Source of the DNA: a virus
DNA: 25,365 bases
IMG/VR virus record: IMGVR_UViG_3300035158_000772
Location: 1 to 25,365 of that record
Strand: one strand, 5' to 3'
This document shows positions 13,166 through 25,365 of this stretch, piece after piece (position 1 is the first letter of the stretch; each line of letters begins with the position of its first letter). Position numbers and translations under genes: made by a program. Below the pieces are notes generated by a model that saw nothing but the letters and a program-made list of their open reading frames with translations, did no database searches and was not told where the DNA came from.

Positions 13166-13348
13166 TCACCCGCCCGCCTTCTCCCACGTGGTCATCCGCT
13201 TGCCGCAGTGCCGGCACTCGCGCCGCCGCAGGATCCGGTTGCCCCACGTCTTCCGCGTGTAGACGACGCGGAACTCCCGGCAGCCGCAGGCGCGGCACTC
13301 CAGGCCGTAGTCGGCCTTGGGTTCCGTTGTGGTGGTCTCTTCGCTCAT
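13166..13348 (-). CDS. NrdR-like zinc-ribbon protein
   Basis: This encodes 60 residues, starting MSEETTTTEPKADYGLECRA. Four cysteines in two CxxC pairs (C18/C21 and C45/C48) frame a basic beta-hairpin: CRACGCREFRVVYTRKTW, then RILRRRECRHCGKRMTTWE. This closely follows the N-terminal zinc ribbon of the transcription repressor NrdR (pattern RRRxCxxCgxRxTTxE), but the ATP-cone domain is absent. A stand-alone ribbon of this size in front of the packaging genes recalls Ogr/Delta-type phage late-gene activators in role, though the sequence is more like NrdR. Its ATG overlaps the radical SAM stop by 4 bp. A second copy, interrupted by TAG, lies after the terminase (10537-10713). Confidence 0.82.
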   Translation of the reverse strand: MSEETTTTEPKADYGLECRACGCREFRVVYTRKTWGNRILRRRECRHCGKRMTTWEKAGG

Positions 13349-14760
13349 CCAGGCACCCCCTGTGGCTTGGGCCACGGTCTGCCCGCACGCTTGCGGGCGA
13401 GCTCGTCGGTCCGCTGCATCTTCCCGACAGGCGTATACGCGCGGAGATAGCGAGTCGGCAGCGTCTCCCACGTGTACGCCCCGAACAGCCGGTCGATGTC
13501 CACGTGGCGGGCCAGGATCGCTTCGCGGTGCCGCATCGACGCGCCGCGGAACCTCGGCGAGGTGGCGAGCTTGGCGATGACCTCCGAGTCGTCCTCGACG
13601 CCGCGAAGGACCAGCGCGTCGAGAATGACCGTCGGCAGGCTCTCCGTGCCGTGCGACTCGCAGCCGTAGAAGCGGCCGCCCCGAAAGAACACGCTGCGGT
13701 ACTGCCGCTCGCGGCAGCCGAGTGAGCGCCCCTGGAACGTCCGGGCGATCCGGCCGCGGTAGTTGACCGGGCTCATCGGCCAGCAGGCCGTGGGCGTCGC
13801 CGGCATGGGGCGGAAGGGCGTCGAGTGGACTTCGATGCCCCACTGCGGGTCGAACCGGTCGAACTGCCGGTCCGCGGCCGCCAGGTCCTCGAGGAACTCG
13901 TACCAGTCGTCCTCCGTCTCGGTGGGGTAGCCGACGATGTTGTAGAGCTTGACGCGGTTCGGCGCCACGCCGCTGGCGGCCAGGCCCCGCAGGAACGCCC
14001 GGAGCATCTCGCGCGTGATCGGCTTGTTGACCATCCGCCGGAGGCGTTCGGAGAAACCGTCCAGACCGACGATGCGGAGCTTCGGCAGCCCCCACGTCTC
14101 GGGCTTGTCGAGGTCGAGCTCGAAGATGGTCTTCTCGGAAGAGCCGACCCAGAGCACGTCGCCCGCCCCGGCCTGGTTCTGGAGCCCGCCGAGGTGCTTC
14201 CGGTGCCACGTATACGCGCAGAACAGGCACTTCCGCTGGCAGCCGCTTGCGGCCTCCCGCCACGTCTTGCCGTTGGCCAGCGGCACCGGGTGCGGGTAGA
14301 GCTGCTTGCCCGGCTCGATGAGCCAGGTCCGGTCGGGGTCGAACTCGGCCGCGTAGCAGACCGACGGGTGCTCGTGCTTCTCGCCGGCGATCGCCGCCTT
14401 GACCAGCGGGACGACGTAGTCTTCCGCCCGGCCGAAGCAGAACACATCGCACCATCGCAGGAACGGCCGGACGTTGAGCAGCCCCGCGCCGCCGGCGATG
14501 ACCGTCGGCCGGGCCGCCTTCGGCCAGCGGAGCCGTTCCCGGACGAACGGATACCAGTCGCAGCCGGACGTGATCGACACCAGCACGACCTTGTACCGGC
14601 CGACCGTCGCGGCCGAGCAGTACCCGACCTCCATCCCGGCGGCCCGAAGCGCATGGCAGACGAGCTCCAGACCCGGCCAGGCGCGCGTGTCATACGACTC
14701 GACCTTGTAGGCCGGCTTGGCGTAGCGGGACTGGACGTAGACGGCCACTTCGGTGCTCAT
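13345..14760 (-). CDS. Radical SAM protein with B12-binding-like N-terminal domain
   Basis: This encodes 471 residues from the ATG at 14760, starting MSTEVAVYVQSRYAKPAYKV. Upstream in-frame starts at 14766 and 14775 lack a better ribosome-binding site. Using the 14775 numbering, residues 1-130 form a Rossmann-like region resembling cobalamin-binding domains (YKVVLVSITSGCDWYPFVRE, then TVIAGGAGLL). The radical SAM cluster motif is C179-x3-C183-x2-C186 (SGCQRKCLFCAYTW). TIM-barrel features follow: RIVGLDGFSERLRRMV, NRVKLYNIVGYPTETEDDWY. A late Cys pair region (LGCRERQYR, YGCESHGTE) may bind another cluster. The substrate is unknown. It stands at the head of the packaging genes, with no maturation or biosynthetic partner nearby apart from a zinc ribbon. 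Radical SAM genes of this layout are unusual in a packaging module. Confidence 0.85.
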   Translation of the reverse strand: MSTEVAVYVQSRYAKPAYKVESYDTRAWPGLELVCHALRAAGMEVGYCSAATVGRYKVVLVSITSGCDWYPFVRERLRWPKAARPTVIAGGAGLLNVRPFLRWCDVFCFGRAEDYVVPLVKAAIAGEKHEHPSVCYAAEFDPDRTWLIEPGKQLYPHPVPLANGKTWREAASGCQRKCLFCAYTWHRKHLGGLQNQAGAGDVLWVGSSEKTIFELDLDKPETWGLPKLRIVGLDGFSERLRRMVNKPITREMLRAFLRGLAASGVAPNRVKLYNIVGYPTETEDDWYEFLEDLAAADRQFDRFDPQWGIEVHSTPFRPMPATPTACWPMSPVNYRGRIARTFQGRSLGCRERQYRSVFFRGGRFYGCESHGTESLPTVILDALVLRGVEDDSEVIAKLATSPRFRGASMRHREAILARHVDIDRLFGAYTWETLPTRYLRAYTPVGKMQRTDELARKRAGRPWPKPQGVPG

Positions 14761-14780
14761 AGTCATCCCTGACACTGCTT

Positions 14781-14835: not shown

Positions 14836-15327
14836 TCACGTCGGCGCCGCGAACTCGTGCCCGCACTTCGGGCAGCGGACCGTTTCGCCGGCTTCCTCGG
14901 CGTCCGCTTCGCCGTCGTCCAGGTCGGTATCGAACTCCCGCAGGTACTCGGCGAGCTCCTTGTCCGAGAAGCCCAGGAGCTTGAGGTCCACGCCCTCGTC
15001 GCGGAGCTCCCCGAGCTCGATGGGCAGCAGTTCCACGTCCCACTCGGCCCGCTCGGCCGTCTTGTTGTCCGCCAGCCGGTAGGCTCGGCGCTGTTCCGGC
15101 GTGAGGTCCGCGGCGACGTGGACGGGCACGGTCTGGAGCCCCAGCTTCTTCGCCGCCTTCCACCGCGTGTGGCCGACGACGATCACGCCGTCTTCGTCCA
15201 CCACGATCGGCTGGCGGACGCCGAACTGGCGGATCGACTCGGCCACGGCGTCCACTGCGGCGTCATTGAGCCGGGGGTTCCCTTCGTAGGGCTTGATGCG
15301 ATCGGTTTCCCACGGTTCAATCTTCAT
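14836..15327 (-). CDS. ParB/Srx-fold protein with C-terminal zinc knuckle
   Basis: This encodes 163 residues, starting MKIEPWETDRIKPYEGNPRL, with GAGGAG 5 nt before the ATG. The ParB/sulfiredoxin-type domain covers residues 1-100: NPRLNDAAVDAVAESIRQFG, RQPIVVDEDGVIVVGHTRW (the GHTR nucleotide-binding motif at 52-55) and YRLADNKTAE. The C-terminal part has acidic DTDLDDGEADAEEAGE, then CPKCGHEF (C152/C155). In many phages this domain is fused or linked to a DNA methyltransferase; none is present here. Homologous domains bind or hydrolyse nucleotides, or bind DNA. It follows the Cys-rich gene with an 11-nt overlap and is the last gene of the early block. Function beyond the fold is unknown. Confidence 0.85.
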   Translation of the reverse strand: MKIEPWETDRIKPYEGNPRLNDAAVDAVAESIRQFGVRQPIVVDEDGVIVVGHTRWKAAKKLGLQTVPVHVAADLTPEQRRAYRLADNKTAERAEWDVELLPIELGELRDEGVDLKLLGFSDKELAEYLREFDTDLDDGEADAEEAGETVRCPKCGHEFAAPT

Positions 15328-16378
15328 TGCGTCTCCTCACTGAGGCATGGTTTCGGGGGAAGGGCTGCGAACGATGGCCGAGCGTCCTGACAACTGCCCC
15401 GAGTGCGGGGCGGCCCGAGTCGCCCAAATCCTCTACGGCTACGATTCGCTCTATGAAGAGGCCGACCTCGACGCCGGGCGGGTGGTCCTGGGCGGCTGCG
15501 TCGTCCGCGAGGACAGCCCGCAGTGGCGGTGCGCCGCTTGCGGCCACGAGTGGGGCGGCGGGGACTGGATTGCCAGCATCGAATCCGTTCCTCCGGCCCT
15601 CCGGGATAGACTCCGTGCCGTGTTTTCGCGCGCCCGAACGAAAGAAACCTGACGCGCGGCCGTTCCCGCCGCAGTTGTCTTTGCGCGGAGTTCTGGTAGG
15701 ACCCGCGAGGGAATTCGCTTGCTCTCCGCCGGTGGCGGCGTAGACTTCGCCCTCATGGGCTGGCTCTCCCCCGGCCAGCCCGCTGGTAATGGGCTCGCGG
15801 TCAGGTCCCCCCCCACCTGGCCCGAGCCCCTTCTTCGCGCTGTGGGGCCAGGCCCATACCTCGCGGCTCAGCAGCGGGCCGTCGTAGCCGGCACAGTAGT
15901 GCCAGGCTTCGGGCGGCGGATCGCAGACGTGCTCCCTCGTGCCCCAGACGAACGCCGTCCCGCCGATGCTTTTGGCGCAGTACGGCGACCCAGCCGCATG
16001 GAAGAAGTGCCGGCAGTCCGCGCACCGGCAAAGCTTCAGAACTGCGGCATTCCGGGCCGGCGCGGAGTCTCTGGAGTCTGCGTGGAGACTCGGATTGTCA
16101 GACTCCGCGCTGCAACTTCTGTTCTGGCAAAGCCTTCCATTCAAGTGTGGAGTCTCTGGAGTCTGAACGGCCGTTTCTATGCGCGCGCGTGCGCGCGCAC
16201 GCGCGCCCGCGCACGCGTAAGACAAGGAATCAGACTCCACAGACTCCACAGAGGCCGATAACTCTTTGTGATCTCTGACGTTAGCGCGTGGAGTCTCGCG
16301 TTTTGAGACTCCACGGAGACTCCACAGACTCCGCGCTTCGCGGGCCGCCAGCAGCGCGATGACCGTCGCCAGGCTCAC
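15317..16378 (-). CDS. Cys-rich hypothetical protein with inverted-repeat-encoded N-terminus
   Basis: This encodes 353 residues from a GTG at 16378 that overlaps the primase stop (GTGA). The first 100 residues are low in predicted order and are encoded by the repeat array: SASVESVESDSLS, AGARARARARIE, VQTPETPHL. Residues 115-182 form a probable metal-binding domain: CRCADCRHFF, SPYCAKSIG, EHVCDPPPEAWHYC, and GPLLSREVWAWP (Cys 117, 119, 122, 134, 152, 162). This style occurs next to primases in other phages and plasmids. After about residue 183 the sequence is Gly/Pro/Arg-rich without pattern, and residues 243-335 lie opposite the plus-strand zinc-ribbon gene. The natural end was probably earlier, and the rest may be read-on into inserted DNA. 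The N-terminal and central part is well supported, the tail is doubtful. Confidence 0.6.
   Translation of the reverse strand: MSLATVIALLAAREARSLWSLRGVSKRETPRANVRDHKELSASVESVESDSLSYACAGARARARARIETAVQTPETPHLNGRLCQNRSCSAESDNPSLHADSRDSAPARNAAVLKLCRCADCRHFFHAAGSPYCAKSIGGTAFVWGTREHVCDPPPEAWHYCAGYDGPLLSREVWAWPHSAKKGLGPGGGGPDREPITSGLAGGEPAHEGEVYAATGGEQANSLAGPTRTPRKDNCGGNGRASGFFRSGARKHGTESIPEGRRNGFDAGNPVPAAPLVAASGAPPLRAVLADDAAAQDHPPGVEVGLFIERIVAVEDLGDSGRPALGAVVRTLGHRSQPFPRNHASVRRRNED
15374..15652 (+). CDS. Opposite-strand zinc-ribbon protein
   Basis: This encodes 92 residues from the ATG at 15374 (GAAGGG 9 nt upstream), starting MAERPDNCPECGAARVAQIL. An earlier ATG at 15347 is possible. Two CxxC pairs (CPECG and CAACGHEWGG) bracket a central LYGYDSLYEEADLDAGRVVL stretch followed by GGCVVREDSP. 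This is the layout of a small family I know from many bacteria: 'CP.C...v..I.YG', then 'G.vvlGGC', then 'W.C..Cg.eW'. The role is unknown. It lies opposite to the operon, over the 3' part of the minus-strand frame 15317-16378 and divergent from the ParB-like gene, so it looks like an inserted cargo gene. Of the two overlapping frames, this one has the far more convincing protein. Confidence 0.75.
   Translation: MAERPDNCPECGAARVAQILYGYDSLYEEADLDAGRVVLGGCVVREDSPQWRCAACGHEWGGGDWIASIESVPPALRDRLRAVFSRARTKET
16064..16332. repeat. Dyad array of GGAGTCT boxes around a GC-alternating tract, candidate origin
   Basis: GGAGTCT occurs at 16064, 16073, 16149, 16158 and 16290, and its complement AGACTCC at 16100, 16232, 16241, 16306, 16317 and 16326. 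A one-mismatch box, GGAGACT, is at 16084. All twelve boxes pair exactly as mirror images about 16198. The boxes form doublets 9 bp apart, with successive doublets 83-85 bp apart (about eight helical turns). The centre is an alternating purine-pyrimidine GC tract (16179-16206 and 16208-16219) that favours Z-DNA or melting transitions. Outside the boxes the arms match only partly. It lies directly downstream of the primase-helicase gene and inside the 5' part of the Cys-rich gene. Iteron arrays of this kind mark replication or partition sites. Confidence 0.75.
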
Positions 16379-18744
16379 TCGATCCCCTCCAGGTGGTACT
16401 TCGAGGCGTTCCCGCAGGAGGTCGCCCGGATGAACCACTCCCCGACGGGCGTGTCGGCATGGCGCCGCAGCATCCGCCCGAAGGCCACGCTGACGGCCTG
16501 CTCGCTCCGCTTCGCGAAGATGTAGCCGAACAGCTCGTTCGCAGCGGCCAGGTCGCGAAGTTCTTTCGGCGCGACATCGGCGGCGCCGTACGCCTCGTGC
16601 CACGCCCGGACGAAGGCCTCCATCTCCGCGCCTTGCGGGTCGGCCAGTTTCCGCCAGTCGGCCTCGTTCGTCCGCCAGGCGCGGAAGCCGCCCGCCGCGA
16701 GAATCCCGCCGACCGTTTCCGACCAGCTCTCAAAGCCGCCCAGGCGGTTCGGGTGCTTCGGCCGGCCGGCGGCCAGCCACGTCTCGACGAGCCCGAGCAG
16801 GCATTCGAGCACGACCCGCCTCTGGCGCCGGACGTAGGCCCGCAGGTCGGGGTGCTGGAAGTCGGACCGGGCCTCCGGGTGTGCCGAGGTCGGCTCGATC
16901 AGGACGGGCACGATCCGCTTGGCGATCTCGCCGGAGGCGGCGACGTTGTTGCCCGTCCCGACGACGGTCAGGTGGTTCGCGAGCTTCACCGTCCTCGAGA
17001 CGCCCAGGACGCGCCCGCCGAAGACGTGCGCCGTCAGCAGGCTCGACAGCGAAGCCGAGTCGACGTAGTGCGGAAGGTTATCGAGGTGCATCAGCGTCTC
17101 GCCCTGGAGCAGCATGGCGAGGATCCGCTTCTCTCGTTCCTCCTCGCGCTCCGTGATCTGCATCGAAGGCGTCTGCCGGCCGATCAGGACGCCGCCGAAG
17201 ACCTCGTTGACGAGCTTGCTCTTGCCCGTCCGCTCCAGCGGCGAGTTCACCAGATGCATCGGGCGGCTGCCGTCCAGGGCCGGGCCGACGATGGGCGTGA
17301 GCAGCAGGCCGAAGAAGTTCTCGCGGTCCGCGTCGGTCTTGAACGGGAAGTCCACGACGAGTTCGTCCAGAACGCCGTGGATCACCTCGGCGTCCCGTTC
17401 TGGCTCCAGCCCTGCCAGTTCCGGCGGCTCGTCGTAGTACAGGCCGTCCCGCCAGCCCGGCTCGATCCGGACGAAGCCCGGGCCGTACACCGGATAGCCG
17501 ACCATCAGGTCGAGCTCGCGAACGCCCTCGGCCTGCCGCGCGTGGGCGATCACGACGCCGGCGGCGTCCTTGCCGCACGGCTGGTAGAGCATCACCTGCT
17601 CTTTGCTCTGGCGGGACGTGACCCACTTGCCGAGCTTCATCCGTGAATCGACCGCCAGCCGCATGCGGTCCGGGCCGAACTCGACCCAGCGGCGCCGGCC
17701 CGCGACCCCCAGGATCTCGCCGGGGATGAACTCCTTGCGGTAGACGGCCTCCTCGGGCAGGCGGGCGAGCACGTCGCCGGCGAAGTCGGCGTTCGACTGC
17801 TCGGTATAGCGGTCCCGGTCGTCATGGTGGGCGCCGGGGACGAGGACGTACTCGCTTGCGGGAACGTCGGCCGGTTCTTCGCCGGGTTCTTCGCCCGGTT
17901 CGTACGGCGACGCCTGCTCGGCCAGCTCGACCAGCCGGTCGGCCGTGCCCCCGGCGGCGAGCCAGTCTGAGGCGTCCTTGCCGTCGCCGGGCAGTTCGAG
18001 GACCTTGAGCTCCCCCGCCTTGCCCGCCAGGCGACGGGCAACGTCCCGCGCGTGCTTTCGGCCCGCGTCGTCCTTGTCGGGCAGGATGGCCACGCGGCGG
18101 CCGTGCAGGGGCGAATCATCCGAGAGCTTCGACCAGTTGCCGGCCCCCATGGGGTTGGTGGTGGCGACCAGCCCCAACTGGGCCAGGCTGTCGGCGTCCT
18201 TCTCGCCCTCGACGACGAACGCCCAGCCTTCGGGCCCGGCGGCGAGCAGACCGGGTAGGCGGTAGAGCACCCGGGGGACGGCCTCGAACCGCCGGCGCGG
18301 GGCGCCCGCGGCCGCCTGCCCGTTCGCCTTGTACCAGTCGCCGTCGCCGCGCCGGGCATACTGGCCTTCGCTCAGCCCCCAGACCCAGTGATCCCCGCCG
18401 TCGGGGCGCCGCTGGCGGAACTGCTTCGGTTCGAGGCGCACGACCTGGTAGAGCAGTTCCCCGTCCGCGCCGCGGTAGTCGTAGGCCGCGATGATCTGCC
18501 GGGGCGTCCGCCCCTTCGCCCCCGGCGGGAACAGGGCGCGAAGCGGCAGCTGCAGCGCCTTGCAGACCGCCGGCGGCGAGCAGCCGGCGTGGCAGTGCAG
18601 CAGCGCCCGGCCGTCCGCGCCGCGGGCGACGCTGAGGCTGGCGTGGCGGTCGTCGTGGGCGGGGCATTTCGCCTGCCACTGGCCGGGCTCGCTGCCCTTG
18701 ACGCCCTGGAGCCGCTCGAGGATGTCCTGGACGGGGTCATTCAC
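16375..18744 (-). CDS. Phage DNA primase-helicase
   Basis: This encodes 789 residues, starting MNDPVQDILERLQGVKGSEP. A zinc-binding primase head lies at residues 27-55 (CPAHDDRH, then LLHCHAGC; ligands C27, H30, C51, C55). A TOPRIM primase domain follows, with FVVEGEKDADSL (E179) and AILPDKDDAGRKHA (D223). A Glu/Pro linker near 281-300 leads to a helicase/ATPase domain with Walker A at about 501-509 (SPLERTGKSK), Walker B LMHLDN (551-556) and a sensor segment VVGTGNN. The protein should synthesise primers and unwind the fork at the phage origin. The C-terminus, with HADTPVGEWFIRATSCG, resembles the wing of other phage primase-helicases. Start and stop overlap the neighbouring genes by 8 and 4 bp. 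No DNA polymerase is encoded in the window, so host polymerase is probably used. Confidence 0.9.
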   Translation of the reverse strand: MNDPVQDILERLQGVKGSEPGQWQAKCPAHDDRHASLSVARGADGRALLHCHAGCSPPAVCKALQLPLRALFPPGAKGRTPRQIIAAYDYRGADGELLYQVVRLEPKQFRQRRPDGGDHWVWGLSEGQYARRGDGDWYKANGQAAAGAPRRRFEAVPRVLYRLPGLLAAGPEGWAFVVEGEKDADSLAQLGLVATTNPMGAGNWSKLSDDSPLHGRRVAILPDKDDAGRKHARDVARRLAGKAGELKVLELPGDGKDASDWLAAGGTADRLVELAEQASPYEPGEEPGEEPADVPASEYVLVPGAHHDDRDRYTEQSNADFAGDVLARLPEEAVYRKEFIPGEILGVAGRRRWVEFGPDRMRLAVDSRMKLGKWVTSRQSKEQVMLYQPCGKDAAGVVIAHARQAEGVRELDLMVGYPVYGPGFVRIEPGWRDGLYYDEPPELAGLEPERDAEVIHGVLDELVVDFPFKTDADRENFFGLLLTPIVGPALDGSRPMHLVNSPLERTGKSKLVNEVFGGVLIGRQTPSMQITEREEEREKRILAMLLQGETLMHLDNLPHYVDSASLSSLLTAHVFGGRVLGVSRTVKLANHLTVVGTGNNVAASGEIAKRIVPVLIEPTSAHPEARSDFQHPDLRAYVRRQRRVVLECLLGLVETWLAAGRPKHPNRLGGFESWSETVGGILAAGGFRAWRTNEADWRKLADPQGAEMEAFVRAWHEAYGAADVAPKELRDLAAANELFGYIFAKRSEQAVSVAFGRMLRRHADTPVGEWFIRATSCGNASKYHLEGIE

Positions 18745-21299: not shown

Positions 21300-22175
21300 T
21301 CAGTTGAGGTTGTTGAGGTTGATGTCGGATTCCGAGCGGACCCGCAGGCGGCCCGCCGCCTCCTTCGGCAGCGGGAACAGCTCGCAGGTCGCCGCGTACA
21401 GCCGGGTGATCGCCTCGCCCCGCAGGTAGGCCAGCAGCGCCCGCTCCGTCTTGGCGTACCGCTCCAGCCGCTGGGCCCGGCCGCCGGCGGGGCGGCCCAG
21501 CAGGAACTGCCACAGCAGCACCGCCGGCCGGTCCGCCTCGCGCCGCGCCATCCCGCCGACCAGGACCTCGCAGAACGCCGCGATCCGCTCCCGGTCGGCC
21601 GAGTACCACGCCCGGGCGATCACCGCGCGGCTGTCGGCGCTGGCGATCCCCCGAAAGCGCGTCCCCCTGGGCAGGCACGTCAGGGCGAAGGCGATCGCCT
21701 CGCGGTGGCGCTGCAGGCCTTCCGCCGCCTCCGCGGGCGTCAGCGCCGGCGGCGTGAGGAAGCCCCCGAGCATCGCCCGCAGAACGGCGAGCTCGCGGTT
21801 CCCCACCCGGTCCATCCCCCCGCCGAGGGTCAGGATGTCCGCCAGCGACCGCGGCCGGCCGTTGTCGATCGCCATCAGGGCGTCCGGCGGGACGTTCAGC
21901 CAGACGTAGAGCTTCACCGCCCGGTTGGCCAGGACGATCGCCCACAGGCGGTGCTGGCCGTCCAGGAGCACGCCGTGGGGGTCGAAGGCGATCCCCTCGT
22001 GGGTCATCTTCCAGCGGCCGTGGCGGATGTCGCGGGCCAGCCGCTCGGCGTAGCGGTCCGAGAGCCTGCGGTTGCGGTTGTTGGCGCCCTCCAGCCAGCG
22101 GGCGGCCATCGACGGCGTGACGGCCATCAGTTCGACGCGGGGGCTGGATTTGAGGGAGGCGGCGGCCTGGGTCAT
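21300..22175 (-). CDS. ParB-fold protein (DGQHRL type)
   Basis: This encodes 291 residues, starting MTQAAASLKSSPRVELMAVT. The ParB/Srx-type domain covers residues 12-110: MAARWLEGANNRNRRLSDRY, then LARDIRHGRWKMTHEGIAFD and GVLLDGQHRLWAI (D72-L77, the nucleotide-binding loop). VWLNVPPDALMAIDNGRPRS follows. Beyond 120 it is a long helical region with Arg/Ala-rich repeats and a hydrophobic stretch AVLLWQFLLG. It belongs to a common phage and plasmid family of uncharacterised ParB-like proteins. Its ATG overlaps the stop of the other ParB-like gene by 4 bp. No ParA is encoded nearby, so a role in regulation or replication is more likely than classical partition. Confidence 0.85.
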   Translation of the reverse strand: MTQAAASLKSSPRVELMAVTPSMAARWLEGANNRNRRLSDRYAERLARDIRHGRWKMTHEGIAFDPHGVLLDGQHRLWAIVLANRAVKLYVWLNVPPDALMAIDNGRPRSLADILTLGGGMDRVGNRELAVLRAMLGGFLTPPALTPAEAAEGLQRHREAIAFALTCLPRGTRFRGIASADSRAVIARAWYSADRERIAAFCEVLVGGMARREADRPAVLLWQFLLGRPAGGRAQRLERYAKTERALLAYLRGEAITRLYAATCELFPLPKEAAGRLRVRSESDINLNNLN

Positions 22176-23074
22176 GAGGGGGCTCCTTCAGCCAGGGAAG
22201 ACAGGGAATCACAAAGCCCCGCCCGCGCCTCCGCCGGCAGGCCGGCCAGGAGTTCGCGGACCAGGGCGACGAGGTAGTCGCTGTCGAAGACGCTCAGCAG
22301 CGTGCGGGCGCCCATCTTCGGATCGTGCGGCATCGACAGCGCGGTCTTGGGCTCCGGCCGGCTGTGGCCGCGGACGGGGCGGAAGGCGTCCTTCGAGATC
22401 CCCCCGCGGCTGCGGCGCTGCCGCGCGAGCTTCGCGGCGCGGGCCACCTCGCGCGCCCCCCGCGAGACGAGCCGCTCCTGCCGCGCCCGCGGCAGGCGGG
22501 CGACCTCCGCCGCGGCGGAGACGGAGACTTCCCCCTCGCGGACGGCCCGCTGGAGTGCCTCGGCGCCCTTCTCGCGGACCGTCCGGGCCGCCTGGACCAG
22601 CCGCGGCGAGACGTTCATCGCCGACGCGGCCTCGTCGCGGGCCTTGGCCGCCGCGCAAGGTGGTGGCAAATTTGCCACCACCTTTGCGCCGACCTTCTGG
22701 CCCGGCCTCGCTCTGGTTGCCTGCTGCCTGGCCTTGGCCTCGACGGCGCAAAGGTCCGCCAGGGCCGCGGCGAGCAGCGCCCGTTGGGATTCGCTGAGGT
22801 TCCGCCGGCCCAGCTGGTTGCGGATCACCCACGCCTGCGCCGCTTCGCGGGAGGGAAGCTCGATCTCGCGGACTTCGCACGCGATCCCGTGCCGGCGGCA
22901 CAGCTCGTGGCGGTTGTGCCCGTCCAGCAGGACGTTCTTCCCGCGCCAGACGAGAAGGGGGCTCAGGCACCCGTCGGTAAGCAGGCCCGCCTCCAGGTCG
23001 CGGCGCTCCTCGTCCCGCAGCGGCGGGATCAGGCCGGCAAACTCCGGGTCGATGACGATTCGGTCCAGATCCAT
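22172..23074 (-). CDS. ParB/KorB-like DNA-binding protein
   Basis: This encodes 300 residues, starting MDLDRIVIDPEFAGLIPPLR. The ParB N-terminal domain contains LSPLLVWRGKNVLLDGHNRH (D51-R55) and EAAQAWVIRNQLGRRNLSES. A DNA-binding helix-turn-helix follows at about 145-165 (DEAASAMNVSPRLVQAARTV) and again near GEVSVSAAAEVARLPRARQE. The C-terminus is unstructured-looking up to a final helix, DYLVALVRELLAGLPAEARA. This is a full ParB-type DNA-binding layout. A perfect 28-bp palindrome (22657-22684) lies inside its own coding sequence, which could be its binding site (autoregulation). There is no clear ribosome-binding site, and its start is 3 nt after the nuclease stop, so coupling is probable. 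Confidence 0.85.
   Translation of the reverse strand: MDLDRIVIDPEFAGLIPPLRDEERRDLEAGLLTDGCLSPLLVWRGKNVLLDGHNRHELCRRHGIACEVREIELPSREAAQAWVIRNQLGRRNLSESQRALLAAALADLCAVEAKARQQATRARPGQKVGAKVVANLPPPCAAAKARDEAASAMNVSPRLVQAARTVREKGAEALQRAVREGEVSVSAAAEVARLPRARQERLVSRGAREVARAAKLARQRRSRGGISKDAFRPVRGHSRPEPKTALSMPHDPKMGARTLLSVFDSDYLVALVRELLAGLPAEARAGLCDSLSSLAEGAPS
22657..22684. repeat. Perfect 28-bp palindrome inside the ParB-like gene
   Basis: The left arm AAGGTGGTGGCAAA and right arm TTTGCCACCACCTT are exact reverse complements with no spacer. Allowing one extra T on the right, the symmetry extends into flanking GCGC on both sides. It codes for AKVVANLPPPC in the ParB-like protein. A perfect 28-bp dyad is far beyond chance in 25 kb. 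It suggests a protein-binding site or a cruciform. Confidence 0.85.
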
Positions 23075-23077
23075 GGG

Positions 23078-24085
23078 TCAGTTGCCCTCCTCGCCGGCCG
23101 GGTCGGCCGTGTTCGCGGTAGGATGCTCGCGCGTGTCGCGCGAGAGGCGTTCGAAGCCGGCCGGCGGCTGCTCGGGGTCGATGTGGACAGCGTTCAGGCA
23201 CAGCTCCGCGAACTCGCAGCCGCGGCAGCTGACGCGCGAGACGTTGCGGTACCAGGCGTGGGCCGGGTCGGCCAGCCGCCGCGCCCGGCGCCTGAACTCC
23301 AGCAGCTGGCGGCCCTGCTGCCACAGCTCCGCCTGGAACGCGGCAAGCTCGTCCTCGAGGCGCGGGACCTCGCGGCGCTGGAAGTAGAAGCCCGGCCGCT
23401 CGCCGATGTCCGCCAGCAGCCGCTCGCCGTACGCCTCCGGCGTCTCGCCTCTCCGCAGCCGGATCGTCGGCTTGCGGGTGACGTCATACAGGACCGTCGC
23501 CGCGTCGAAGCCCAGCGCCCGCGCCGCCAGGACGTACAGGCTGATCTGCCCGTCGCAGCGCAGGCGAAGCCAGTACTCCCCGTCGGGGGCGATGTCCTCG
23601 CCGGCGGTCTTGGATTCGAGGACGGCGGCCCGCCCGTCGCTCAGGCGGACCAGCGCGTCGATCCGCCCGGCCACGCGCAGGACGCTGCTGCGCGCGCCGG
23701 TCGCGGGGTTGTGGAGCGGCAGGTCGAAGGCCTGCTCGACGGCCGCGTACTCCAGGTCGTCCTGGCCGTAGCGCCAGAAGTGCCCGGCCAGCAGCGCCCG
23801 GACCTGCTCGCGCTCGACCGCCCAGGCCTGGGGCTCCGCCCAGTCGGGGCAGCTCTCGTAGTCCGCCGTCGCCGCCTGGATCGCCAGCTCGCGGCTTTGT
23901 CCCGAGCGCCGAAGCTCCAGCCCGCAGTGGAACGCCGAGCCGAACCGAAGCGGCGCCGCCTTGCGGACCCGTGCGAGCCCCAGCTCGTAGCGCAGGTAGT
24001 ACTGCCGCGGGCAGCGGCGGAAGCTGGCGAGCCGGGTGGCCGACAGGAGCAAGACGCCGGCAGAATGGCGCTGCTTGCCGCTCAT
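23078..24085 (-). CDS. RecB/Cas4-like PD-(D/E)XK exonuclease with Fe-S cluster motif
   Basis: This encodes 335 residues, starting MSGKQRHSAGVLLLSATRLA. C25 lies in SFRRCPRQYYLRYEL. GSAFHCGLE carries the motif I His (H53). The active-site core is VAGRIDALVRL (D143) and AVLESKTAG (E157, K159). QISLYVLAARAL is motif QxxxY-like. The C-terminus has three further cysteines, SCRGCEFAELC (C287, C290, C296). These with C25 give the four ligands of the 4Fe-4S cluster seen in AddB, Cas4 and related phage nucleases. It should degrade or process DNA ends to start recombination by the Sak4-like protein. It overlaps the DUF1580 gene by 4 bp. There are no nearby CRISPR arrays or cas1/cas2, so it is a phage recombination nuclease rather than a CRISPR one. 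Confidence 0.9.
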   Translation of the reverse strand: MSGKQRHSAGVLLLSATRLASFRRCPRQYYLRYELGLARVRKAAPLRFGSAFHCGLELRRSGQSRELAIQAATADYESCPDWAEPQAWAVEREQVRALLAGHFWRYGQDDLEYAAVEQAFDLPLHNPATGARSSVLRVAGRIDALVRLSDGRAAVLESKTAGEDIAPDGEYWLRLRCDGQISLYVLAARALGFDAATVLYDVTRKPTIRLRRGETPEAYGERLLADIGERPGFYFQRREVPRLEDELAAFQAELWQQGRQLLEFRRRARRLADPAHAWYRNVSRVSCRGCEFAELCLNAVHIDPEQPPAGFERLSRDTREHPTANTADPAGEEGN

Positions 24086-24414
24086 GCCCCGGCCTCCTCC
24101 AGCTGCCGCTCCAGGGCCTGGAGCTCGCGTTCTTCGCGCTTCCGGCTGTACCGTTCAGGGACGGAGGCCGCGGTCTCGGCCTCAATGTCGAAGTACGCGG
24201 CGTCCGCATCCGCCAGCCGCTGGCCGAAGTCGTTGAGCCACTCGGCCGTCGTGTAGATCTTGCCTCCGATCCGCACGTGCCGCAGTCGCACGCGCCGGCC
24301 CCCGCGGGACAGCACGCCCCGGCGGCACCACCGCCAGATGCAGTTGGTCGAAGGCCGGCCCGGCGACAGCTTCGTCGCCTGGGTCAGCGTGAGGTACTCG
24401 GGGATCTCGTGCAT
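24082..24414 (-). CDS. DUF1580-type HTH protein, first gene of the early operon
   Basis: This encodes 110 residues, starting MHEIPEYLTLTQATKLSPGR, with a strong GGAAGGA ribosome-binding site 6 nt before the ATG. Residues 8-75 match DUF1580: TLTQATKLSPGRPSTNCIWR, then WCRRGVLSRGGRRVRLRHVR and IGGKIYTTAEWLNDFGQRLA. This is a MerR-like helix-turn-helix with a wing. The family was defined mainly from planctomycete genomes, which supports the host call. The C-terminus is a charged helix (RKREERELQALERQLEEAGA). It stands first in the early operon beside probable operator boxes, so it may regulate it, or act as an excisionase-like factor. The fold is clear, the role inferred. Confidence 0.82.
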   Translation of the reverse strand: MHEIPEYLTLTQATKLSPGRPSTNCIWRWCRRGVLSRGGRRVRLRHVRIGGKIYTTAEWLNDFGQRLADADAAYFDIEAETAASVPERYSRKREERELQALERQLEEAGA

Positions 24415-24891: not shown

Positions 24892-25050
24892 TCACATCGG
24901 CCACTTCGCCAAGTATCCAGCCCAGGCCAAGAGGGCATGTGATGCCTGGACGATCACGGGCGCCACCCAGCCCCATCGCGGGTAGCGTATCCCAACGTAC
25001 CAGTGGGTGAACACGACCAGGAACATACCGGCGTACGCGAAGGTCAAGGC
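24892..25050 (-). pseudogene. C-terminal fragment of a small membrane protein
   Basis: This frame, ending at 24892, reads GMFLVVFTHWYVGIRYPRWG and then WVAPVIVQASHALLAWAGYL. These are two hydrophobic stretches with membrane-protein composition, unlike the random shadows around it. It joins the transposase end in another frame at about 25050 and has no start or ribosome-binding site of its own. It looks like the 3' remnant of a host gene truncated by the transposon. I do not recognise the family. Confidence 0.35.
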
Positions 25051-25365
25051 GGGCCAACACGCGCGGCGATCTTGATCAGCCGCGAGCGGATCGTCTCCAC
25101 CGAGGCCGTCTCCAGCTCCGTCCCGGCCAGCATCTGGCGGTAGGCCCGCATCAGGTTGTACCCCACGGCCGTCAGCACCAGCCGGAAGGCGTTGGCGACA
25201 AATCGCCGGCAACTGAGCCGGTCCATGGACAGGCCGTTCTTGAACTCGTCGATGAACGTCTCGGCCGTGCCGCGGTCGTCGTAGATCGGCCAGAGCTGCT
25301 GCGGCGTGCCTCGGCAGTTGGTCACGACGAACCGGCGGTTGGTGCCCTGGTCGTTGACCTCGACC
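25044..25365 (-). mobile_element. IS1380-family transposase, C-terminal part, 3' truncated
   Basis: The frame runs off the right edge; 106 residues are visible. IS1380-type signatures are YDDRGTAETFIDEFKNGLSM (the last catalytic Glu is in this AE..I.E block), CRRFVANAFRLVLTAVGYNL, and SVETIRSRLIKIAARV. After ARV, where family members normally continue for some tens of residues, it ends at once in GPP and a stop. The end therefore appears cut at about 25050, where the membrane-protein fragment begins. No terminal inverted repeat could be identified. The DDE enzyme is probably inactive in this copy. Confidence 0.85.

Follow-up and report, generated by a model that had tools for sequence, protein, structure and literature searches.

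What is the role of a dense array of short repeats just downstream of a phage primase-helicase gene? The window (the whole stretch of DNA that we analyzed, 25,365 nucleotides) is a 25-kb fragment from an IMG/VR virus record and is probably from a planctomycete phage. An earlier note on this DNA suggested that the array might be an origin of replication, a partition centromere, or a regulated cruciform. We argue that it is the phage's replication origin, with iterons that bind the initiator, directly 3' of the initiator's own gene; we put the probability of this at roughly 88%. Below, W is the locus in the window and L-numbers are the loci of relatives of its helicase.

Twelve boxes in a perfect dyad

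The array is built from these elements:

16064-16332, no strand: twelve-box dyad with its axis at 16198, the proposed iteron origin (from box positions and mirror sums)
16064-16106, plus strand: outer element of one half, with boxes at 16064-16070 (+), 16073-16079 (+), and 16084-16090 (+, GGAGACT), and an inverted box at 16100-16106 (-)
16149-16164, plus strand: inner doublet of the same half, with boxes at 16149-16155 and 16158-16164
16232-16247, minus strand: inner doublet of the other half, with boxes at 16232-16238 and 16241-16247
16290-16332, minus strand: outer element of the other half, with an inverted box at 16290-16296 (+), then boxes at 16306-16312, 16317-16323, and 16326-16332 (-)

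Counting both strands, the window contains 13 exact copies of GGAGTCT, while 3.6 were expected from shuffled sequences and none of 100 shuffles reached 13. Eleven of the 13 lie within 16064-16332; under a Poisson model, 0.026 copies are expected in these 269 bp, and the probability of 11 or more is about 1e-25. The twelfth box, GGAGACT, has a single mismatch. Thus, our recount agrees with the earlier note, which had reported eleven perfect copies and one imperfect copy where chance predicts almost none. The note's claim of exact mirror pairs holds as well: all six pairs (16064+16332, 16073+16323, 16084+16312, 16100+16296, 16149+16247, and 16158+16238) sum to 32396, with zero spread. It was also right that the center at 16198 falls in an alternating GC tract and that the array is immediately downstream of the primase-helicase gene: in the direction of that gene (minus strand), the first half-site begins 42 bases past the stop codon. 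The 9-bp spacing it gave for doublets does not extend to the whole triplet, where the spacing is 9 and then 11 bp.

Outside of the boxes, the two arms match poorly, as had been noticed before. A regulated cruciform is possible in principle, but the arms between the boxes are not conserved. Scans of the array region with Rfam and for tRNAs gave no match, and the GC skew of the window has no clear switch at the array.

Relatives keep the geometry and change the box

We collected relatives of the helicase by scanning viral contigs and planctomycete MAGs. Of the close relatives, 18 had sufficient DNA downstream of the helicase gene, and every one of these carries a linked box array on that gene's 3' side. 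In L109, the array is intact about 700 bp from the helicase, behind an inserted ORF (L109:7491-8156, 222 amino acids, without a Pfam match). Relatives that keep the protein and lack the boxes, which the note had named as evidence against its reading, did not turn up among the close relatives. The most frequent 8-mer 3' of the helicase usually exceeded all shuffles and all control windows from its own locus. At each locus, the boxes gather in one main cluster, with few stray copies (L120 and L127 have extra boxes late in the coupled ORF), and there was no second origin-like cluster in the loci we scanned.

The box itself differs among these loci (we assigned consensus and orientation locus by locus). 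GGAGTCT is the box of W and L104; GGAGAATC of L106, L107, and L113-L115; GGATATTC of L108; GGAGACTC of L122; GCAGAGGTT or close variants of L105, L120, L124, L126, and L127; GCCGAGGTT of L128; GACGAGGT of L109; GACCTATA of L125; and GCAACCTT of L110 and L130. Farther relatives have GCAACCTC, GGAACCTT, GCAATCTC, ATCCTTGCA, GCCCAACCT, or GCCCAATCA.

The arrangement of the boxes is retained. In a half-site, three direct boxes at intervals of about 10 bp are followed after 7-9 nt by an inverted box, and a pair of direct boxes lies about 49 bp beyond it. Whatever the box word, the offsets in aligned half-sites are 0, 8-11, 19-21, 34-37, 84-86, and 93-98 (the half-site of L122 is longer by about one helical turn). 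Complete mirrors are present in W, L109, L110, and L130, with sums that spread by 0-2 bp, and L189, L191, and L208 also have sets of 12 boxes. In most loci, the half-site template was matched better by the actual boxes than by the same boxes placed at random (p <= 0.001); L107, L124, L125, L128, L201, and L204 match it only partly. So the suggestion that the boxes are what is conserved has to be reversed: across relatives, the positions are kept and the box sequence varies.

Because one geometry carries unrelated box words, these arrays are not copies of one mobile element. A mobile palindromic repeat (a MITE or a protein-coding palindromic element) would account for a long imperfect palindrome that is in frame with an ORF. 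But when we searched for the array as a dispersed repeat, as the note had proposed, 392 sampled planctomycete genomes matched only the GC tract (query positions 111-168) and never the boxed arms, and a DNA similarity search of plasmids gave no match. We consider a mobile repeat to be extremely improbable.

An array of this kind is missing downstream of the gene in more distant relatives of the helicase (from Caulobacter, Ruegeria, Phaeobacter, and Mesorhizobium phages; L195-L200; and others). The relatives from cultured phages that we examined also lack arrays, except for the archaeal virus vir525 (L158), which has about 11 ATACCCGCA boxes flanking an AT-rich center. Box arrays 3' of related helicases are also present in L167 (pGP6), L164 (pA32H2), L162 (pCM32), and L165; counting vir525, these arrays belong to a virus and a plasmid of archaea and to plasmids of bacteria, and most of them have other layouts. 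A scan of IMG/VR for GGAGTCTNTGGAGTCT found mostly unrelated loci with few boxes.

The box changes with the helicase's winged helix

The protein features that matter here are:

16375-18744, minus strand: primase-helicase of 789 amino acids, the proposed initiator (TOPRIM N terminus and phrog_10537-like helicase)
16378-16602, minus strand: C-terminal winged-helix domain (CTD), residues 715-789, the proposed box reader (AlphaFold2, winged-helix neighbors in PDB, and covariation with the box)
16462-16503, minus strand: recognition helix, residues 748-761, within the winged-helix domain
16384-16437, minus strand: wing of the winged-helix domain (from the same CTD model)

AlphaFold2 predicts a winged-helix fold for residues 690-789 (pLDDT 82). 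VIA-align related this model to many winged helices (Z of 6-8), which is a common fold; Foldseek gave no match to the model at E <= 0.001, and sequence searches of PDB with the helicase and the CTD gave no meaningful match. The AlphaFold model of the 527-aa helicase is poor outside of the CTD (mean pLDDT 50), and its ATPase part was not used.

Loci with similar boxes hardly tend to have ATPase cores of higher identity (rho = 0.07 across 20 loci and 0.17 across 26 loci). Across the CTD, the correlation peaks in the winged helix (rho = 0.62 for residues 751-775, 20 loci). For the recognition helix, the partial rho with the box is 0.54 (26 loci; label-permutation p = 0.0005, with phylogeny not fully modeled). 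For instance, W and L105 have cores that are 85% identical, CTDs that are 48% identical, and different boxes; for W and L104 the values are 79% and 76%, and the box is the same. In all 17 rows of the two large classes, GGA-type boxes occur with FGR and GAGGT-type boxes with FGK. The tree of the core shows 11 changes of box class, and in a strict test of independent pairs all four agree (p = 0.125, with just four pairs). We propose, from these sequence comparisons, that the winged helix of the CTD reads the boxes; the pattern is the trace that would be expected if a DNA-reading module were exchanged together with its sites. With more than 10 box words and their matching winged helices, these loci form a ready data set on origin recognition by a replication initiator and on changes of specificity at fixed geometry.

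The covariation of the boxes with the helicase CTD also argues against a partition centromere that is bound by the operon's ParB-like proteins. A ParB_N protein is encoded nearby in W and in 16 relatives with arrays. The earlier note had counted three ParB-fold proteins in the operon; we found one clear ParB_N protein (14836-15327) and a second, weaker ParB-like match (22172-23074), but no third. However, the ParB-like protein has just 163 amino acids and matches ParB_N only, with no HTH match. There is no ParB match in eight loci with arrays (L110, L122, L189, L191, L192, L201, L204, and L208, whose length is limited) and no ParA among the proteins scanned (part of the ORFs). Downstream of the array in L104, a single protein combines the ParB_N domain with an N6/N4 DNA methylase (L104:8289-9326), so the operon's "ParB" may belong to DNA modification instead of partition. 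Finally, in plasmid pWTY27 (see below), the boxes are bound by RepA, which is not a ParB (PMC3583192). Of the note's options, the origin is strongly supported, and partition is disfavored and seems very improbable.

The primase half of the protein varies in another way. The N terminus of W's helicase is a TOPRIM primase, and tested relatives of that helicase have Prim-Pol (PF09250). Unrelated types of primase thus appear to be swapped on one helicase.

The core is GC rich and alternating

Between the inner doublets is a 67-bp core with two features:

16178-16206, no strand: alternating purine/pyrimidine (Z-prone) run of 29 nt inside the 67-bp core (from run-length comparison)
16203-16221, minus strand: core motif CTTACGCGTGCGCGGGCGC, recognizable in most close relatives, where its distance to the inner doublet is similar

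The 29-nt run is perfectly alternating and almost all G+C; the longest alternating run in 160 control windows was 14 nt. Long runs recur in the cores of L110 (58 nt), L189 (43 nt), and L208 (29 nt), and in most loci the run in the core exceeds that in every control window (L105, L106, L108, and L109 are exceptions). Most close relatives also have a motif resembling CTTACRCGTGCGCRGGCGC between the inner doublets. To judge from its composition, the core of W may be prone to form Z-DNA. Most origins have an AT-rich element that melts, and we counted the GC-rich core of W against the origin reading. Since the alternating GC core recurs, one may ask how melting occurs at an origin that has no AT-rich element.

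Comparison to known origins

RepA of the Streptomyces plasmid pWTY27 is among the relatives of the helicase (tblastn, E = 6e-23; profile, E = 1.6e-44), and the CTDs of the two proteins have weak sequence similarity (E = 0.024). RepA binds GTGGGAAC repeats beside repA, as shown by gel shifts and DNase footprinting, and the replication locus, which comprises repAB and the repeat region, replicates bidirectionally by the theta mode (PMC3583192). We found that these boxes form a perfect dyad of 10 (71/295, 82/284, 98/268, 138/228, and 147/219; every sum is 366). As in W, direct and inverted boxes lie directly 3' of the gene for a homologous helicase, in a perfectly mirrored dyad whose outer elements include an inverted box and whose inner elements are doublets. 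Unlike W, pWTY27 is an actinomycete plasmid with 10 boxes instead of 12, another box word (GTGGGAAC), an alternating run of only 12 nt in the core, and a noncoding array; also, its primase (Prim-Pol, RepB) is on a separate gene, while W's helicase is fused to its TOPRIM N terminus. The pWTY27 array scores poorly on the six-box half-site template because one box is missing and the inner doublet lies nearer by about one turn.

The helicases Rep of SaPIs and Cch2 of SCCmec recognize downstream iterons with their C-terminal domains (PMC7581432). The putative Cch2 origin resembles W in this respect, but it has three AAGTG iterons and no large dyad (PMC7581432). According to PMC6092414 and to Ubeda et al. 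2007 (cited by PMC7581432), the PICI/SaPI origin lies immediately 3' of the Rep helicase gene and has two sets of iterons around an AT-rich center. W shares the two sets 3' of the gene with a center between them, but its 67-bp center contains the alternating, mostly G+C run, and the helicases may belong to different families. Also, PICIs are satellites that rely on the structural genes of helper phages, while W has its own portal, capsid/protease, and terminase genes. In phage lambda, the iterons of the origin are nested in coding sequence, within the initiator gene O itself; in W they are in the next, coupled ORF.

Because RepA is homologous to the helicase and the boxes that it binds are 3' of its gene, we class the array as a proposed iteron origin of the pWTY27/PICI kind. 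This layout has been described as unique to PICIs, and it would extend to phages and plasmids with homologous helicases. What is new relative to pWTY27 and PICIs is the fixed 12-box geometry, the interchangeable boxes, a core that is Z-DNA-prone instead of AT rich, and the nesting in a coupled ORF. The binding of boxes by the initiator and the need for the locus in bidirectional replication are taken from a published distant homolog (pWTY27); our own data show that the array exists, that it is linked to the helicase gene, that its geometry stays fixed while the words change, and that box and winged helix covary.

In the mechanism we propose, the C-terminal winged helix of the helicase would read boxes of 7-9 bp, and each half-site would seed one helicase assembly. 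On either side of the alternating GC core, the mirrored halves would position two assemblies that face each other head to head; the core would then open, so that phage replication would initiate at the array and proceed bidirectionally (theta type). There would then be a defined and testable origin for phages whose host phylum has hardly been studied. More tentatively, and with considerable doubt on our part, W might represent a widespread class of origins that have a fixed 12-box scaffold, a box word that is swapped along with the initiator's winged helix, and opening from a Z-DNA-forming alternating GC tract in place of an AT-rich element.

An ORF through the array

The array is probably nested in a gene that is coupled to the helicase:

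15317-16378, minus strand: coupled ORF that overlaps the helicase stop codon (GTGA), runs through the array, and has a Cys-rich segment, CRCADCRHF...WHYCAGYDGP (from ORF reading)

Of the 19 array loci that we examined, 16 have an ORF that begins at the helicase stop codon or close to it, usually with an ATGA or GTGA overlap, and reads through the array; most of these ORFs finish in a Cys-rich segment. In L109, the ORF begins after the inserted gene. L108, L110, and L130 keep the array and its geometry but have no such ORF, which implies that encoding this protein is not the reason for the array.

An array inside a coupled ORF, with a transcript that is predicted to fold strongly (z = -9.7), might instead be an operator or RNA-level element for the replication operon: the initiator could bind it for autoregulation, or it could be an accessory site like crr of P4, with synthesis starting elsewhere. 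However, the array follows the initiator gene instead of preceding it; its geometry persists in the three contigs without the ORF; there is one main cluster of boxes per locus and no second origin-like cluster; and the repeat region of pWTY27 is part of the replication locus (PMC3583192). We consider a regulatory element or accessory site in place of an origin to be quite unlikely. Autoregulation and a crr-like accessory role are both compatible with binding by the initiator. Iteron sites often serve in autoregulation as well as in initiation.

We also noticed other features in the window. A radical SAM protein without a PHROG match is encoded in the phage operon between the ParB-like and terminase genes (13345-14775, minus strand). 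There is also a DUF1580 gene (24082-24414), and the edge of the window holds a transposase fragment (25044-25325). Between the array ORF and the ParB-like gene is an element of about 62 nt, GGTCCTTCCG...GCGGGAACGG...GGTTTNTT (15642-15703, minus strand), which is in the same place in L105, L113, L120, L124, L126, and L127 and is possibly a packaging (cos-like) site or a terminator.
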